Source of the DNA: Blastocatellia bacterium
Lineage (GTDB): Bacteria > Acidobacteriota > Blastocatellia > UBA7656 > JADIYM01
Direction of reading: 5' to 3'
NCBI GenBank assembly: GCA_021463145.1
Contig: JAJTWZ010000016.1
Location: 1-64,000, forward strand
DNA: 64,000 bases
Shown: positions 1-8,019 of the stretch, in pieces
Layout: each line of letters opens with the position of its first letter
Numbering within the stretch: position 1 is the first letter of the stretch
Program-made: the position numbers and the translations under genes
The notes under the pieces: generated by a model
What the model was told of the DNA's origin: nothing
The model's database searches: none
What the model saw: only the letters and a program-made list of their open reading frames with translations

Positions 1-91
1 CTTTCACATCGGGAGGGAACAGGCTCGACTTCACACCACGACATGGCGCATTGCCGCGTGATCTCTCACTCAAGCCGTCGTCGCAAAACAG

Positions 92-481
92 TTACACCCG
101 ATCAAAAGAGGCTCGTGCAAATATGCAGAGATGACCGATTGGGATATGTCCAAACCGAGGTGCAAGCCTGTGCAAACTGCGGGCAAAGGCGTACCTCCCA
201 TCGGCAGCTTGCTTGAACGGTGATCTCGTTATTGTCGACGGCCACCATCTGTCACTCACGAAGCTGATTTCCTCATGAGACTTCACCTCGATGCATAGAA
301 TGCCCGCAGTGGGCACGAATACGACAAAGTCGAGCTCTGTCCTGAGATTTCTATTCCAAGGAGCTAAGTCGAGCGAGTGCAGGGCAACCCAGTCATCCGG
401 GCCGCTTGCGAGCATACTGAACACGGCTCGCTCGCCGGGCGGCGTATGATCGTCCATGAATGCAGGTATCATTCGCGCCAT
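92..481 (-). CDS. NERD nuclease-related domain protein, interrupted or truncated
   Basis: The 129 residues match the start of a NERD (nuclease-related, PD-(D/E)XK-like) domain: an early conserved Glu (GERAVFSML), then RTELDFVVF, then EVKSHEE, which gives the E...D...ExK pattern of that fold. NERD domains usually continue for longer and are often fused to a DEAD/UvrD-type helicase. Here a TAA at 92-94 ends the frame, but the same frame stays open from that stop to the window edge and still reads like NERD continuation (RSRGNAPCRGVKSS). So the gene may carry a nonsense mutation, or a sequencing error may hide a longer protein. The start overlaps the end of the preceding gene by 13 bases, which implies co-transcription. 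Nuclease activity is inferred from family only. Confidence 0.6.
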   Translation of the reverse strand: MARMIPAFMDDHTPPGERAVFSMLASGPDDWVALHSLDLAPWNRNLRTELDFVVFVPTAGILCIEVKSHEEISFVSDRWWPSTITRSPFKQAADGRYAFARSLHRLAPRFGHIPIGHLCIFARASFDRV

Positions 482-2043
482 TGCTCAGCCCTCTCCAGTT
501 CGATTACCTGCTTTAGCTCGCCTTCAGGTACGCAAAAGTCGTCCTCCACGGCCTGAACTGCCTCAAACATGACTGATCCCTGCAGTGCGCAGTCTTCCGG
601 AAGAGCCAGAAGGAACGAACGTCCTGGTGCGGCGAGGTCGCGAAGCTCGTCCAGCATCGTCTTAAGGATAGACAACAGTTCGTCTTCAAGAATCTCCTGT
701 TCCTGTACCCCAGTCCGGATAGCTATGCCGCGTGATCGCTGAACCTCTCTCCACGCGAGCGTCCAATGGAACTCTAGGTCAAGGGCTTCAATCAAGCTTC
801 TAAAGTGTCGCTGCTTCTGCGGGGCGCGAATGACGGTAGTCGGCGGCTTGAGCCAATTCCGAATTCCGCTACGCAGGCGCAACAAGTCTAGACCGCCATC
901 GGTGAGTCTTCTTACTAAGGCGTCTTCATTGGAGAGAAGCCTCTCCATGAGCCTCTGCTTCCAAAGCTGGCTGTAGTACCCGTGGCTTGCCTGAACCTCT
1001 CCAAAATCTACATCGGCGATATTCGGTCTAACTAGAAACGTTCCTTCGATGAATGATTCATCCGGCACTCGACGCTTCAGTGGCTCATCCGAGTTAGGTG
1101 AAGCTTCATAGCTCAGCACCCTTGCCATTCTAGGAAAGAGAATGCCGTGAACGTCATCGATGTGAACTAGAGTCGATGGGCGCGATCTCTCTCGATTCGG
1201 CTGTAATGACAAGAATGCCCGCAACTCGTCGTCATCAGGACTGTACTCCACAGGCGCGGCAATCGGGGCGCCTGCGATTGTTCCTACGTGGCGACGCGAG
1301 TGCCGAACAGGCAGTCCTGGCGAGAGCCTTGAAGAGTTGGTTGCTCCAGTCGCTGACTGAACCGGATCGTAGCCGAACCCCTCGTCGTCTGCGCATCCTT
1401 CCCATACGATATGCACCAGTCTGCAATACCGCGGCGCAGTCACAAGTGCATCCGGCAGAGCCCCCCAACCTCGCGACCGCAGCGGTCCTACTTTGAAAAG
1501 GACATCAAATGGACTCGTGTCACGGTAGTCACTGACGGAATGCAGGAATCGGTTGTCCTCGATTGCTGCATCCACGCCTCCTAACAGCAGTTCCTGGAAC
1601 GCGAGCCTCGCCCACCTCTGACAGTAGATTCGGAAGTCGCCGCCGAGTTCAAGCTCTGCCGTGATTCTATCGCGGAGTTCCTTCCGGAGCGGGTTCTCGC
1701 TTCGAGCCATTTCGTCGGCTGCTCGTAATGCCGACTCATAAGAGCCTCGTGCATCTGCTCCCCACCTCGCCTGTACGTCACGCGGTTCCCCGAGAATCCT
1801 TAGAGATTCTCGAATCGAATGATCGAACTCAGCGGGACCTGTGAGCCATCCCGACATTGCCACACGCAGCTTGTCTCCTAAGTCCCTCGATCCCTGGTCA
1901 TCGCCTTCGTGCAGTGTACGTAAGATTGACCGGACGCCGCGCCGAAGATCTCCGAATGCAGATGACGTGACTTCAACTGTTTCGATCGAGAAACCGCTTG
2001 CTCCATCGAGCCAATCGAACATATCCATTGCCGTAACGACCAT
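469..2043 (-). CDS. Uncharacterised 524-residue protein of a low-GC three-gene cassette
   Basis: I do not recognise this protein. It has no signal peptide or membrane segment. The N-terminal half is acidic and helical. The middle carries a Pro/Ser/Arg-rich stretch (about residues 235-285). A better-ordered C-terminal region contains STLVHIDDVHGILFPRMARV, then GTFLVRP and HGYYSQLWKQRL, which look like a conserved beta-rich plus helical domain. It begins 3 bases after the stop of the 316-residue gene upstream and overlaps the NERD gene downstream by 13 bases, so the three genes form one transcription unit. Base composition is near 50-55% GC against the low 60s elsewhere, which fits horizontal transfer. 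A role in phage or plasmid defence is a guess from the NERD partner. Confidence 0.7.
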   Translation of the reverse strand: MVVTAMDMFDWLDGASGFSIETVEVTSSAFGDLRRGVRSILRTLHEGDDQGSRDLGDKLRVAMSGWLTGPAEFDHSIRESLRILGEPRDVQARWGADARGSYESALRAADEMARSENPLRKELRDRITAELELGGDFRIYCQRWARLAFQELLLGGVDAAIEDNRFLHSVSDYRDTSPFDVLFKVGPLRSRGWGALPDALVTAPRYCRLVHIVWEGCADDEGFGYDPVQSATGATNSSRLSPGLPVRHSRRHVGTIAGAPIAAPVEYSPDDDELRAFLSLQPNRERSRPSTLVHIDDVHGILFPRMARVLSYEASPNSDEPLKRRVPDESFIEGTFLVRPNIADVDFGEVQASHGYYSQLWKQRLMERLLSNEDALVRRLTDGGLDLLRLRSGIRNWLKPPTTVIRAPQKQRHFRSLIEALDLEFHWTLAWREVQRSRGIAIRTGVQEQEILEDELLSILKTMLDELRDLAAPGRSFLLALPEDCALQGSVMFEAVQAVEDDFCVPEGELKQVIELERAEQWRE

Positions 2044-2046
2044 AGT

Positions 2047-2997
2047 CTACCTCTGCCTCAGACGCAGTACCGCGATGCCGCGTGGGATCGCAGATAGGTT
2101 CTCAGCTGCATCATCAATGACCTCATACCACTGACTGAGCTGACCAAGTTTCGTGCCAAGCTCGTCGAGGCGCGTACGCTCCATCACGCGGCTGTAAACG
2201 CCAATGACATCACAGTGCCCAAACTCAGCGCGATCGATGGCATTGAGGAATGCTGCGTCGCCATCTGCAACGAGTAGTTGAGGGCGTCCGGAGTGTCGAT
2301 CAATCGTGTCCGTCCTAGAGTTGAAGAAAGATACACGCGAGACCGAGCCCGGCAGCCAGTCCTGAATGGCGAGGAGCTGTCCAAGATCAGCCGTGGCATC
2401 CGAGACGTCAATGGAAAGCGCTTGCATCCGCGCGCGGGTCCAGCGCGCTCCCCTGACGTGACCGGCAAGGCAGATGCTTGAGTCGGAATGCCTGAGGTTG
2501 GAATCTTCTATAGAGCCACTTTCTCCTATTATCGCTTCATAATGCTTGCGGAATGGAAGCTGGTTGCCCTGTTGTACTTCTACGGGCGCTTCGCCTGAAA
2601 ACTGCCAATCCACTGAGTTGCGACGTGAGACAAAATGGCGCTCGTCCGTCGCATCCAGACGCCTTATCCAGACAGTTCCGTCGTTTCGGATTTCATCGGC
2701 GACGTAGCGACCGGTTCTGCCACGAAGTCTAAGCTCGGTGTTCCTGTCTCTCGTCCTTGCAAGAGTCTCGATTCGGCGAAAGTGCTCTGTAAGGTCGTTC
2801 GAGCCTGGCGTGGCGATACGTCGACACATTGCTCCCAGCGCAACCAGTCCAGCCGCAGGAGAGTCACACGGCATGGAGATCAAGCCAATTCTGCGCTTGC
2901 CAAAGTCGTTAGCGCGCCAGTTAAAGCCGACGTTGATTAGATAGGACATCCACGTTGGCATTGTCCGCTGGATCCTTCTTGCCTCAGCTACTTGCAT
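2047..2997 (-). CDS. Uncharacterised 316-residue protein, first complete gene of the low-GC cassette
   Basis: Family not recognised. The sequence is soluble and mixed alpha/beta. A stretch near residues 36-60 (RRIGLISMPCDSPAAGLVALG) resembles a conserved nucleotide- or ligand-pocket start, and a later block (RVSFFNSRTDTIDRH, then PQLLVADGDAAFLNAI and DVIGVYSR) looks like an alternating strand-helix fold with conserved Asp residues. The ATG is followed directly by a well-formed protein, and the stop lies 3 bases before the next gene. It shares the lower GC of its neighbours. A coupled three-gene set ending in a NERD-like nuclease is the kind of arrangement seen in restriction-like systems, but I cannot assign it to a named system. 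Confidence 0.7.
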   Translation of the reverse strand: MQVAEARRIQRTMPTWMSYLINVGFNWRANDFGKRRIGLISMPCDSPAAGLVALGAMCRRIATPGSNDLTEHFRRIETLARTRDRNTELRLRGRTGRYVADEIRNDGTVWIRRLDATDERHFVSRRNSVDWQFSGEAPVEVQQGNQLPFRKHYEAIIGESGSIEDSNLRHSDSSICLAGHVRGARWTRARMQALSIDVSDATADLGQLLAIQDWLPGSVSRVSFFNSRTDTIDRHSGRPQLLVADGDAAFLNAIDRAEFGHCDVIGVYSRVMERTRLDELGTKLGQLSQWYEVIDDAAENLSAIPRGIAVLRLRQR

Positions 2998-3215
2998 GAG
3001 CTCAGTTCATCTTCCTTCTTCGTCGTTATATTCGCGTCCTCGACGACAAGTCTCGCGAAGTTGCCGCCAAGCTCGAACCGTCTGGGCCGCTAATGTAGCT
3101 TTGCCGAAGTCTGAGGACCTACCCCCACTCATCGAAGAATCGGCAATACGTGTAAAGAGTCTTAGGGGCAGGCTGAATCGCCCTCTCACTTGACGCCCGG
3201 CTGCGTCCCCCGAAC
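2998..3215. other. Gap holding the GC boundary of the island
   Basis: The low-GC composition of the first three genes continues to about 3190 and then changes abruptly to the high-GC background at the end of the SNF2 gene. On the minus strand a frame (3007-3222) runs up to 9 bases before the 316-residue gene. It could be the tail of a further cassette gene whose front was lost at the junction, but 71 codons are too few to be sure. I see no tRNA or obvious direct-repeat attachment site here. Confidence 0.4.
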
Positions 3216-5084
3216 TCACCACCCCACCACCCGCTCATACCCCGCCGGCACCGGCCTCCCTGCCGCGAGCGCGGCCTTCAGCACGCGTGCGTGCGAGCAC
3301 ATCCCGCGGTACTCGAAGCCCCAGCACGAACACGTAACGTCTCCGTCGCCCGCCACCACGATGTCGTAGGTCGTGCCCCTCCCGCTCGTGCTCGCCGCCT
3401 TGAATCGCTGCTCCGTCGGTGCGCCATCTCCCGCCGGTCCACCGAGCGCCTTCACAAGACCCTCGAGCGCTCGCTTCCAGGCTTCGCCTCCCTCGACCGC
3501 AGACCGCCGCACCGCCGGGTCGACGAAAACTCCCTCCGCACGAGACGCCGCCGTCGCCTTCGCGATCAACTGCCGCAATTGCGCGTCATTGAGTTCCTTC
3601 GAACCCGCCTCTGCCAGGCCAGGTGAAATCGCGCGCATCAGCCGCTCCAGCTCGCCAAGCACCGAGTCCGAAGCCTCCCCGAGCGCCGCACCGTCGATCA
3701 CCGCGTCCACCAGCGCCGATTTCGTCTCGAGCACCGTCTGCACGAAGTCGTCGATCGTCCCCGCGCCGACCATGTACGTCACGTTCACCGCACCCGTCTG
3801 CCCGATACGGTACGCCCGGTCCTCCGCCTGCCAGTGATTCGCCGGTACCCAGTCCAGGTCGTTGAACACAACCTGGCGCGCCGCCGTCAGGTTCAATCCG
3901 ACACCGCCCGCCTGGATGTTCGCCACGAACACCCTCACCGCCTCGTCGCTCTGGAAGCGGTCCACAAGCCCCTGGCGCTTGCCGGTCGGCGTCGCTCCCG
4001 TCACCGAAACCGCCGCCTTGCCGAAATGCTTCACCATCCGCTTCACCGGTTCGTCGAAGCACGAGTACACAAGTACCCGCTCGCCCTGCTCGACCGCCGA
4101 CTCCACGAACTCGATCGTCGATGCGACCTTCGCAACCGCCAGCTTCTGCCGCGCGACAGCCAGATTCGCAAGCAGCTGTCCACGGCTCGCGTCCTGGACC
4201 GCGCCCTTCGCCCGCGCGCGAGCCCGCGGCGCAACCTGCCCGGCCTGTCCGGCGACAAGCGTCAGGAGCACCCTGCGGATCTCGGCACGCGCCGTCGAGT
4301 CCGGTACCTCGACCGGATTCCACGTCCTGATCTTCGGCGGCAGGTCGAGCACCTCAGTCTTCGTCCGGCGCAGCATCACGCCGCGCAGCTGCACGGCGAG
4401 CTCCTCGAGGTTCGAAGCCCCGTCCGTCACCCAGCCGTAACCGTTCTGCTCTGCCGCACAGTACCGCTTCGCGAAGCTCAGGAAGCTGCGGCCCATCGCG
4501 TGATCGCACAGTTTCAAAAGCGGGAACAGGTCGCGCGGACGGTTCGTCAGCGGCGTGCCGGTCAGCAGGTAGACGACCGGTTTCCGCTCGGCCGCGCTCG
4601 CTGAGTCCACGATCCGGAACGCGTGCTTCGATCGCGCGGCCGTGCGGTTTTTCAGGTAATGCGCCTCGTCGAAGACGATCCCGCCCCAGCGGACGCGCTC
4701 GAGCTCGCCAATCCTGCGCGACAGAATGTCGTAGTTGACGACGGTCCATTGAGGGTCCGCGATCTCGCCGGCGCTGTCCTTTCCACCGAGCACGGAGACC
4801 CGTGCGCCAGGCATCACGACCGCGATCTCTCGCGCCCAGTTGCACTTCACGGACGCCGGCGAAACGACGAGCCAGGGGCCGGCGGGCGCGGCTTCAGTCA
4901 GCGCGACGATCGCCTGTCGCGTCTTGCCGAGTCCCATGTCGTCGGCAAGGATCGCCCGGCGGTGGCCGAGCAGGAACGCAAGTCCCTCTACCTGGTGCGG
5001 GAACAGTCCCTCGGCGAGCGCGCGCGCCCGGGCGACTGGGTTCAGGGACGGATCGGTCTTCGGCTGCGCTTTCTTTGCGGGCAT
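3216..5084 (-). CDS. SNF2-family helicase-like ATPase with C-terminal SWIM zinc finger
   Basis: This is a 622-residue SNF2/Rad54-type double-stranded-DNA translocase. Visible motifs are Walker A DDMGLGKT (about residue 48-55), DEAH in VVFDEAHYLKN (about 135), LLTGTP, and the C-terminal helicase motifs GGVGLNLTAA and QAEDRAYRIGQ. The last 40 residues hold a SWIM zinc finger (CSCWGFEYRGMCSHA, pattern CxC...CxH), thought to bind DNA or partner proteins. I chose the ATG at 5084 because an AAGGAG lies 7 bases upstream and the helicase homology begins at once; the frame is open further upstream (to 5303) but reads as non-coding. A second SNF2 plus SWIM set, there as two genes, sits at 22.6-26.6 kb. 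Confidence 0.92.
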   Translation of the reverse strand: MPAKKAQPKTDPSLNPVARARALAEGLFPHQVEGLAFLLGHRRAILADDMGLGKTRQAIVALTEAAPAGPWLVVSPASVKCNWAREIAVVMPGARVSVLGGKDSAGEIADPQWTVVNYDILSRRIGELERVRWGGIVFDEAHYLKNRTAARSKHAFRIVDSASAAERKPVVYLLTGTPLTNRPRDLFPLLKLCDHAMGRSFLSFAKRYCAAEQNGYGWVTDGASNLEELAVQLRGVMLRRTKTEVLDLPPKIRTWNPVEVPDSTARAEIRRVLLTLVAGQAGQVAPRARARAKGAVQDASRGQLLANLAVARQKLAVAKVASTIEFVESAVEQGERVLVYSCFDEPVKRMVKHFGKAAVSVTGATPTGKRQGLVDRFQSDEAVRVFVANIQAGGVGLNLTAARQVVFNDLDWVPANHWQAEDRAYRIGQTGAVNVTYMVGAGTIDDFVQTVLETKSALVDAVIDGAALGEASDSVLGELERLMRAISPGLAEAGSKELNDAQLRQLIAKATAASRAEGVFVDPAVRRSAVEGGEAWKRALEGLVKALGGPAGDGAPTEQRFKAASTSGRGTTYDIVVAGDGDVTCSCWGFEYRGMCSHARVLKAALAAGRPVPAGYERVVGW

Positions 5085-5385
5085 CCTGGTGCTCCTTCGG
5101 GTTTCGATTCGTGGATTTCGTACGGTTTCCATTGTGAACGGGCCGGTCGGACATGCAGTGGGGCAGGTCTTCGAATGCCGAACCCCGGGCACGCGCTTGT
5201 TTCGAAGAAGGCGCGACGAACCTTCGCGGCGGCCGATCCGCTCGCTACTCCTGAACGCGCAATGTGCGGGTGAAGTGGCTGGCGCCATTTCTCTGCCGTC
5301 CATTGATCCGTCATCCCCCCATCCGGCAGTCGCAGTACTCGCGGCCGTGTTGCGGAACGTGGCGGCAACAGACTAGTCTGCCCTC
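5085..5385. other. Intergenic region between divergent genes
   Basis: These 300 bases separate the SNF2 gene (leftward) from the Phd/Doc pair (rightward) and must hold both promoters. I see no convincing sigma-70 hexamers, repeats or RNA structure. Confidence 0.4.
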
Positions 5386-5583
5386 GTGAAGACGCTCGAG
5401 GTACAACTGGACGAGCAGGAAGCGAGCCGCCTTGAAGCGATCGCCAGCCGGCTGGGTGTGACGTCCGAGGAACTTGCGAAGCGCAGCATCCTGCAGACAC
5501 TCGCGCGTGTTGACGACGATTTTGCGTCGGCAGCCGAATACGTTCTGTCCAAGAACCGGGAACTCTATCGTCGTCTGTCATGA
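5386..5583 (+). CDS. Phd-type small antitoxin, partner of Doc
   Basis: This 65-residue protein begins at a GTG (MKTLEVQLDEQEASRLEAIA). It is a short ribbon-helix-helix-like N-terminus followed by an acidic helical tail, the usual size and shape for an antitoxin encoded in front of a Doc toxin. Its stop overlaps the toxin ATG (ATGA), so translation is coupled. By family knowledge it would bind and inhibit the toxin and repress the shared promoter. The assignment rests mainly on size, order and overlap; the sequence itself has little diagnostic content. Confidence 0.75.
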   Translation: MKTLEVQLDEQEASRLEAIASRLGVTSEELAKRSILQTLARVDDDFASAAEYVLSKNRELYRRLS

Positions 5584-5975
5584 CGATCTTCCTGGAGCTC
5601 GACCACGTTCTCGCTCTCCACGCGTTCGTGATCGTTCAATCCGGCGGTGCGACCGGTGTTCGAAACCGTGACGGGCTCGAATCGGCTGTCGCAACTCCGA
5701 GAATGACCTTCGATGGCGAAGATCTCTACACGAGCCTCGTTGCGAAGGCGGCCGCACTTGGGTTCGCGCTCGTGTCGAACCATCCTTTTGTCGACGGAAA
5801 CAAGCGCGCAGGACACGCAGCCATGGAAGTGATGCTCGTGCTGAACGGCTTCGAAATCGTGGCGTCCGACGAAGAACAGGAGAAGGTGATTCTCGCCGTG
5901 GCTGCCGGACGGATGTCGCGCGAAGAGTTTACCGGCTGGCTCGGCGCGCACGTCGAACCTTACGACGGCTCGTAG
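5580..5975 (+). CDS. doc: Death-on-curing (Doc) Fic-fold toxin
   Basis: This is a 131-residue Fic/Doc protein. The signature HPFVDGNKRAGHAA (HxFxDGNKR) is intact, with the catalytic His, acidic residue and Lys/Arg that position nucleotide. Doc enzymes of this length phosphorylate or AMP-ylate translation factors (EF-Tu in the P1 prototype). The N-terminus (LELDHVLALHAFVI) and the GVRNRDGLESAVATPR segment are typical of the Doc subgroup. It overlaps its antitoxin by 4 bases. The intact motif suggests an active toxin. Confidence 0.9.
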   Translation: MTIFLELDHVLALHAFVIVQSGGATGVRNRDGLESAVATPRMTFDGEDLYTSLVAKAAALGFALVSNHPFVDGNKRAGHAAMEVMLVLNGFEIVASDEEQEKVILAVAAGRMSREEFTGWLGAHVEPYDGS

Positions 5976-7315: not shown

Positions 7316-7738
7316 TCAGTCGTGCCAGTTCTCGATCGAAAGGCCGGAAAACTGTTCGTAGTCTGCGACATTGGAGGTCACCAGTATGAGTCCGTTCATC
7401 GCCGCGATCGCCGCTATCTGTCCGTCTGCGAAAGGTGGCGTCTTGCCAATCGCGACGAGCCTCGCTCGCTCGCTCGCGTGCCAGTCAGCAGCGCTCTGTC
7501 CATATGGAAGGATCGGCACCGTAGGTCGAAGTACGTCCTCGAGATACGCTTCGATGGTCCGTCGTTTCCTGGAAGGACTCAGGCGAGCGGCCCCAAAGCG
7601 GAGTTCGTGCCACACGAGTGCCGCCGTCGCGACCGACGTGTCGGCCTCGCGGAGTCTCTCCATCACGCGCTCGTTCGGCTTCGGCCGAAGGGGCTCGGAG
7701 AGAACGCTCGTGTCGAGCAGATAGCGAAGCGTCACCAT
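7316..7738 (-). CDS. vapC: VapC-type PIN-domain toxin
   Basis: This 140-residue PIN ribonuclease has the acidic residues of the family in place: LLDTSV (Asp9), the Glu of WHEL, FADGQIAA and TSNVADY. VapC toxins cleave tRNA or rRNA in a magnesium-dependent manner. The ATG at 7738 gives the normal VapC N-terminus and overlaps the antitoxin stop by 7 bases; a longer reading to 7798 would place 20 unlikely residues in front. It is co-transcribed with the preceding Phd/YefM-like antitoxin. Confidence 0.92.
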   Translation of the reverse strand: MVTLRYLLDTSVLSEPLRPKPNERVMERLREADTSVATAALVWHELRFGAARLSPSRKRRTIEAYLEDVLRPTVPILPYGQSAADWHASERARLVAIGKTPPFADGQIAAIAAMNGLILVTSNVADYEQFSGLSIENWHD

Positions 7739-8007
7739 TGCACCTCGCGACCGACACTCCGATCTCGGACCCCGTCGAAGGTGTCCGTCTCTACGCATTC
7801 ACGCTCGATGTCCTCGCGATCACGGAACCGACCGAGTTCCTCCCAGAAGCTTCGGCTGCGCCCCAGTAGCCGCTCGTACTCGCTCAGAGACACAAGTACG
7901 GCAACCGGGCGACCGCGCCGCGTCAATTCGACGGGCCCGCGCTCGGCTTCGTGGACGATCTTTGCGAGATTGTCTCGTGCTTCGGCTATCGAGTACTTGC
8001 CTGACAT
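7732..8007 (-). CDS. Phd/YefM-family antitoxin of the VapC pair
   Basis: This 91-residue antitoxin begins MSGKYSIAEARDNLAKIVHE and continues with VELTRRGRPVAVLVSLSEYE, the standard Phd/YefM DNA-binding N-terminal domain. The C-terminal 35 residues are charged and would wrap the toxin. I place the start at the ATG at 8007 because AAGGAG sits 6 bases upstream; a TTG two codons earlier is the alternative. Family members repress their own operon, and a candidate operator lies directly in front. Confidence 0.92.
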   Translation of the reverse strand: MSGKYSIAEARDNLAKIVHEAERGPVELTRRGRPVAVLVSLSEYERLLGRSRSFWEELGRFRDREDIERECVETDTFDGVRDRSVGREVQW

Positions 8008-8019
8008 ATCCAACTCCTT

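Follow-up and report, generated by a model that had tools for sequence, protein, structure and literature searches.

The low-GC cassette and its borders

The window, by which we mean the whole stretch of 64,000 nucleotides analyzed here from a Blastocatellia bacterium, starts at the left end of a 74.7-kb contig (C68) of a 5.28-Mb assembly in 173 contigs, and because its first base is the contig end, the gene cassette found there truly runs off the contig. A preliminary description of this DNA had reported three co-directional minus-strand open reading frames (ORFs), spaced by 3 bp at one junction and overlapping by 13 bp at the other, the third of them NERD-like and the other two unrecognized. 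The ORF list bears this out, with ORF A (316 aa, 2997-2047), ORF B (524 aa, 2043-469) and a NERD-containing ORF of 129 aa as read (481-92); Pfam NERD is matched by the third at 5.2e-12, whereas A and B have no Pfam match. The drop in GC content of about ten points is also real, as positions 104-3190 have 55.6% compared with 65.5% for the rest of the window, and the lowest value among 231 equal-length windows elsewhere was 0.622 against 0.556 for this stretch. The boundary, described as lying near 3190, has its best likelihood change point at 3164 (55.6% to 65.5%, log-likelihood gain of 51), which we take as the right border of the low-GC insert. A truncated fourth gene had been suspected at this junction (3007-3222), however, the ORF gave no Pfam match and no convincing PADLOC match. 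It was also considered as a methyltransferase or Vsr relic and set aside, having no resemblance to the genes that relatives carry at that place. The truncated gene of the cassette lies at the left end instead, and it is gene C.

Only the 5' part of gene C is present (104-481, minus strand), encoding ~127 N-terminal residues of a NERD-UvrD (SF1) helicase-nuclease as judged by Pfam and by relatives. Over these 127 residues it shows 62-71% identity to the start of NERD-UvrD proteins of 571-575 aa (loci L014-L020), which run on into a UvrD-type SF1 helicase after the NERD domain, and a full-length product of ~572 aa would be expected from these relatives. The best PADLOC match of gene C is RTasNERD-Hel. 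The NERD domain itself is complete, with an E-x-D...E-x-K pattern whose residues E49, D51, E65, and K67 are invariant in an alignment of ten, and this fits the PD-(D/E)xK motif of NERD nucleases. Gene C is interrupted by the 3' end of an ISKra4-family insertion sequence (1-103, plus strand), which comprises the last 19 transposase codons with their stop (2-61) followed by terminal sequence that stops near 103, inside the gene. Positions 1-103 are 78% identical to C151:16445-16547, where an element ends that encodes a transposase of 510 aa (NCBIfam ISKra4, 7e-89), and positions 2-61 translate on the plus strand to the transposase C-terminus FHIGREQARLHTTTWRIAA followed by the stop, as compared with FHIEREQARLRGGTKWQIAA in the C151 element. 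Since the window from 1 to ~103 is a transposon end, the stop at 92 is an accident of insertion and the NERD gene cannot be read as a complete gene of 129 codons. The overlap of B and C is exactly 13 bp in six loci (the window, L014, L015, L016, L017, and L020), which suggests that the two genes are translationally coupled.

To the right of the insert, positions 3216-5303 encode an SNF2 helicase with a C-terminal SWIM motif that matches the ZorD, DpdE, and DrmD models, and gene pairs at 5386-5975 and 7316-8013 resemble, by eye, Doc-type and VapC/Phd-type toxin-antitoxin genes. The preliminary description had called coupled gene sets beside such neighbors typical of defense islands. That setting stands in so far as the cassette belongs to a horizontally mobile defense-type operon, but the SNF2/SWIM gene and the toxin-antitoxin pairs are on the far side of the GC boundary.

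The intact operon in relatives

Relatives of protein A, sought from a two-sequence alignment, were found at eight loci in several phyla (L014-L021), where the orthologues of gene A have 32-39% identity and lie directly before B wherever the contig permits. One of these loci, L019, comes from an Acidobacteria genome that probably shares the window's phylum. Intact operons occur in metagenome-assembled genomes of Pyrinomonadaceae, Bradyrhizobium, Gammaproteobacteria, and Steroidobacteraceae, and the order A-B-C-D-E holds wherever the contig is long enough (L014, L016, L017, and L020, with the start of D also in L015). Gene C adjoins A/B in six of six assessable loci, the window included, so the proposed co-occurrence with a NERD-helicase gene is conserved, and DrmA comes next in five of five. 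Gene D is DrmA (PADLOC 2.8e-196; NCBIfam 1.3e-242) and gene E, a separate gene adjoining it in relatives, is DrmB (DUF1998/MZB; NCBIfam DrmB_fam 9.7e-114). While the relatives' DrmB proteins score 381-462 bits against a cut-off of 240, their DrmA proteins reach 808-919 bits with NCBIfam DISARM_DrmAS, below the equivalog cut-off of 950 bits, and by these DrmA scores the loci sit at the edge of the formal DISARM models.

A cytosine-5 methyltransferase, whose best PADLOC match is DrmMII (8.7e-85 in L016), lies beside the operon in four loci (L014, L016, L018, and L020), with a more distant methyltransferase-like gene in L017. Vsr is present in the same four loci, and housekeeping genes follow the operon in L017. 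By ORF reading or annotation, no PLD nuclease (DrmC) comes after DrmB in L014, L016, L017, L020, L048, L068, L072, or L073, and the Pyrinomonadaceae genome of L014 (G420) has no PLDc_2 match at all. No DrmD, DrmMI, or SNF2 gene was seen in the relatives' operons.

Two genes of the right size, then NERD-UvrD, DrmA, and DrmB, are also found on plasmid pROB02 of Rhodococcus opacus B4, in Deinococcus psychrotolerans (its NERD gene at the unannotated end of the plasmid record), and in an Acidobacteriota genome (G294), while Nostoc HK-01 has two genes followed by DrmA and DrmB without NERD. All four carry divergent orthologues of gene A at the same slot, and that of Nostoc matches the A profile of the window's family at 5.6e-10 in a small search set. 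Tblastn gave no match of A or B in plasmids, and A had no confirmed relative among viral contigs. Additionally, Vsr and the cytosine methyltransferase beside the pROB02 operon are separated by genes for a NaeI-type restriction enzyme and an HNH nuclease (L048:16612-19671).

Genes A and B and their relation to DrmE

The core families of A and B have no direct match in Pfam, PADLOC, or NCBIfam, DrmE_fam included, with A giving no significant NCBIfam match, and they are thus two protein groups missed by the current models. Comparison of the AlphaFold models of A (pLDDT 73) and B (pLDDT 64) with the PDB gave no significant match, and a helicase-like reading of B (e.g., XPF, TM 0.26) was left unused as the resemblance is weak. 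A weak match of A to the nitrous-oxide-stimulated promoter family (0.0025) was set aside as it probably comes from a Cys-rich insert. This insert is present in most A proteins (L014-L017 and L019-L021), is absent from those of the window and L018, and could possibly bind metal.

The identity of gene B (469-2043, minus strand) emerges through a chain of profiles. The B profile matches Nostoc B at 7.4e-10 (small search set), which in turn matches NCBIfam DrmE_fam (NF038316) at 3.6e-18 over positions 393-802 of 838, and the B protein of Acidobacteriota G294 matches the same model at 2.8e-12. Furthermore, the B profiles score above all 300 shuffles with the DrmE C-terminal halves of G716, G786, and Priestia, and with one of the two profiles the same holds for three more DrmE-like proteins, likewise in their C-terminal halves. 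Because of these Nostoc and G294 matches and the scores above shuffles, the assignment of B to the C-terminal half of DrmE is well supported at the level of sequence profiles.

For gene A (2047-2997, minus strand), the first gene of the operon, the case is drawn from slot, length, and the chain through Priestia. In two other genomes, the slot of A/B is taken by one DrmE gene that scores over the curated cut-off (G786, locus L072, 117 bits; G716, locus L073, 89 bits), and for this reason A is very probably the N-terminal half of DrmE. In both, NERD, DrmA, and DrmB come next and a cytosine methyltransferase is close by; the DrmE of G786 has 906 aa (L072:4509-7229). The lengths agree, as A (~340 aa) and B (~530 aa) together make ~860 aa compared with 838 for DrmE_fam. 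Neither HHalign nor shuffles gave significance for A against the N-termini of fused DrmE proteins, and when A and B of Nostoc, or the three pieces from Priestia, were concatenated, the DrmE_fam match reached no further into the N-terminal half. Should the assignment hold, the split of drmE would hint at where the two structural halves of DrmE lie. In G716, DrmE forms the C-terminal part of a 1792-aa protein (L073:4613-9991) with a weak AAA/P-loop match at its N-terminus, encoded upstream of NERD-DrmA-DrmB-Vsr-Dcm. The 1.2-Mb contig of G786 holds a complete operon with an unsplit DrmE, which is unusual in so small a genome.

Relation to DISARM and the state of the window's copy

Taken together, we read the cassette, with a probability of roughly 0.85, as what is left of the 5' part of a DISARM variant acquired by horizontal transfer. 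The composition of this variant, here called NERD-DISARM, is very likely a DrmMII-like methyltransferase, usually with Vsr, drmE split into A and B, NERD-UvrD, drmA, and drmB, without DrmC next to them. The preliminary description had proposed an undescribed defense system and had named a match to a DISARM component as the outcome that would speak against it, and such matches are largely what was found, in the form of DrmA, DrmB, the DrmMII-like methyltransferase, and a B protein resembling the C-terminal half of DrmE. The proposal therefore survives only in part, as this is a variant of known DISARM, yet a NERD-type DISARM with a split DrmE is not described in the open papers searched. In the open-access literature searched, NERD and DISARM came together only in the TALON study (PMC12458937) and in a domain table (PMC10952713). 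The DISARM-like clade of YprA helicases contains many uncharacterized classes, with the main text mentioning NERD for TALON only (PMC12458937).

Class 2 DISARM (drmMII, drmA, drmB, drmC, drmE) shares with these loci the separate adjacent DrmA and DrmB, the cytosine-5 methyltransferase, and probably DrmE, here apparently split. However, the present loci have no DrmC beside the operon, a NERD-UvrD helicase inside it, DrmE apparently as two genes, a commonly attached Vsr, and a DrmA just under the NCBIfam equivalog cut-off. Class 1 (drmD, drmMI, drmA, drmB, drmC) shares only DrmA and DrmB, whereas no DrmD, DrmMI adenine methyltransferase, or DrmC was recognized here and the DrmA clade is separate. 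TALON also pairs a YprA-family helicase with a NERD nuclease but is described with genes for TPR-CSD and TBP and with an RNase H-like domain fused to its helicase (PMC12458937), none of which was recognized by ORF reading of the relatives' operons, where DrmA and DrmB are separate genes accompanied by DrmE and a methyltransferase. The NERD-UvrD architecture recurs in RTasNERD-Hel of DRT loci and in Nhi-like NERD-helicases, although here there is no reverse transcriptase in the operon and the gene has a fixed place between drmE and drmA. Whether NERD-DISARM forms a distinct class, in which a NERD-SF1 helicase nuclease translationally coupled to a two-piece DrmE would be a built-in effector that the known classes lack or dispense with, is to our mind evenly balanced.

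A phylogeny of DrmA from 24 loci places Nostoc, Priestia, and the nine loci with NERD upstream of DrmA in a single clade (support 98/99), away from class 1 and from the remaining DISARM-like loci. Within it, every locus with a split DrmE belongs to the same subclade (100/99), whose sister is the pair of loci with an unsplit DrmE. This topology fits a history in which the order drmE-NERD-drmA-drmB arose once, drmE was later split once, and NERD was lost twice, although long branches make the positions of Priestia and G786 less certain. NERD-DISARM is rare, with the B profile matching one of 398 sampled genomes in the phylum of G426, that one being the seed genome itself.

In DISARM, DrmAB binds DNA that is single-stranded or has a 5' overhang; a trigger loop keeps it autoinhibited, and unmethylated DNA stimulates its ATPase more strongly (PMC9142583). 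By analogy, the methyltransferase of intact NERD-DISARM copies would mark host DNA, and the DrmA-DrmB helicase would load on and unwind phage DNA that is unprotected and either single-stranded or bears a 5' overhang. The NERD-SF1 helicase may replace DrmC as the source of nuclease activity, and the DrmE halves may come together again as a single accessory subunit by which the complex is coupled or licensed. DrmC is reported to be dispensable and is often missing (PMC9142583). A conserved NERD-helicase between drmE and drmA offers a testable candidate for the effector with which DISARM destroys phage DNA.

The window's own copy is very probably dead, because its genome is without the rest of the NERD helicase, including its motor part, and without DrmA and DrmB. 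The preliminary description had suggested that most of the cassette lies to the left of the window. Going by relatives, this is where the rest of the operon belongs, but it was not found anywhere in the assembly. An alternative is that the rest of the operon exists and was lost in an assembly gap at a repeated transposon, the system then being more complete than it appears. The contig does break off within a transposon end, which is how short-read assemblies behave at repeats, and the assembly is a draft of 173 contigs. Against this, neither the remainder of gene C (searched with a query whose N-terminus is 70% identical) nor DrmA or DrmB was found in an assembly rated 100% complete, the same DrmA and DrmB queries find the relatives' genes at 62-67% identity, ~7 kb would need to be missing, and gene C is interrupted in any case. 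We consider such a gap improbable. In two further loci (L019 and L021), gene B is cut as well and other genes come next, and by the same searches their genomes are without DrmA and DrmB, for which reason loss seems common in this lineage. The value of the window's broken copy is as a pointer only.

Two other readings bear on the system itself. If A and B were lineage-specific accessory proteins unrelated to DrmE, the operon would be DISARM-associated but a different system, and the lack of direct library matches for the core families and the non-significant comparison of A with fused DrmE N-termini would be expected. We think this unlikely, if slightly less so than the gap, as the B proteins of Nostoc and G294 match DrmE_fam and are linked by profiles to the B family, the B profiles match further DrmE C-terminal halves above all shuffles, and A and B together have the length and slot of fused DrmE. 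The locus could also be class 1 DISARM if the SNF2/SWIM gene (3216-5303) were its drmD, since that gene immediately precedes A, shares its strand, and has a DrmD score of 2.5e-32. It scores better, however, as ZorD (4e-53) and DpdE (1e-46), its GC content is host-like (67%, GC3 82%) across the boundary, no relative has an SNF2 gene there, and class 1 DrmA is separate in the tree. Scores, boundary, tree, and gene order together rule the gene out as drmD and leave a class 1 locus with next to no probability. Another gene order is seen on Azospirillum and Rhizobium plasmids (L050:1032-10551 and L051:1533-10569), with a UvrD helicase, DrmA, and DrmB followed by NERD as the last gene and with DrmA in a separate clade; in the Azospirillum arrangement, a DarT gene comes after.
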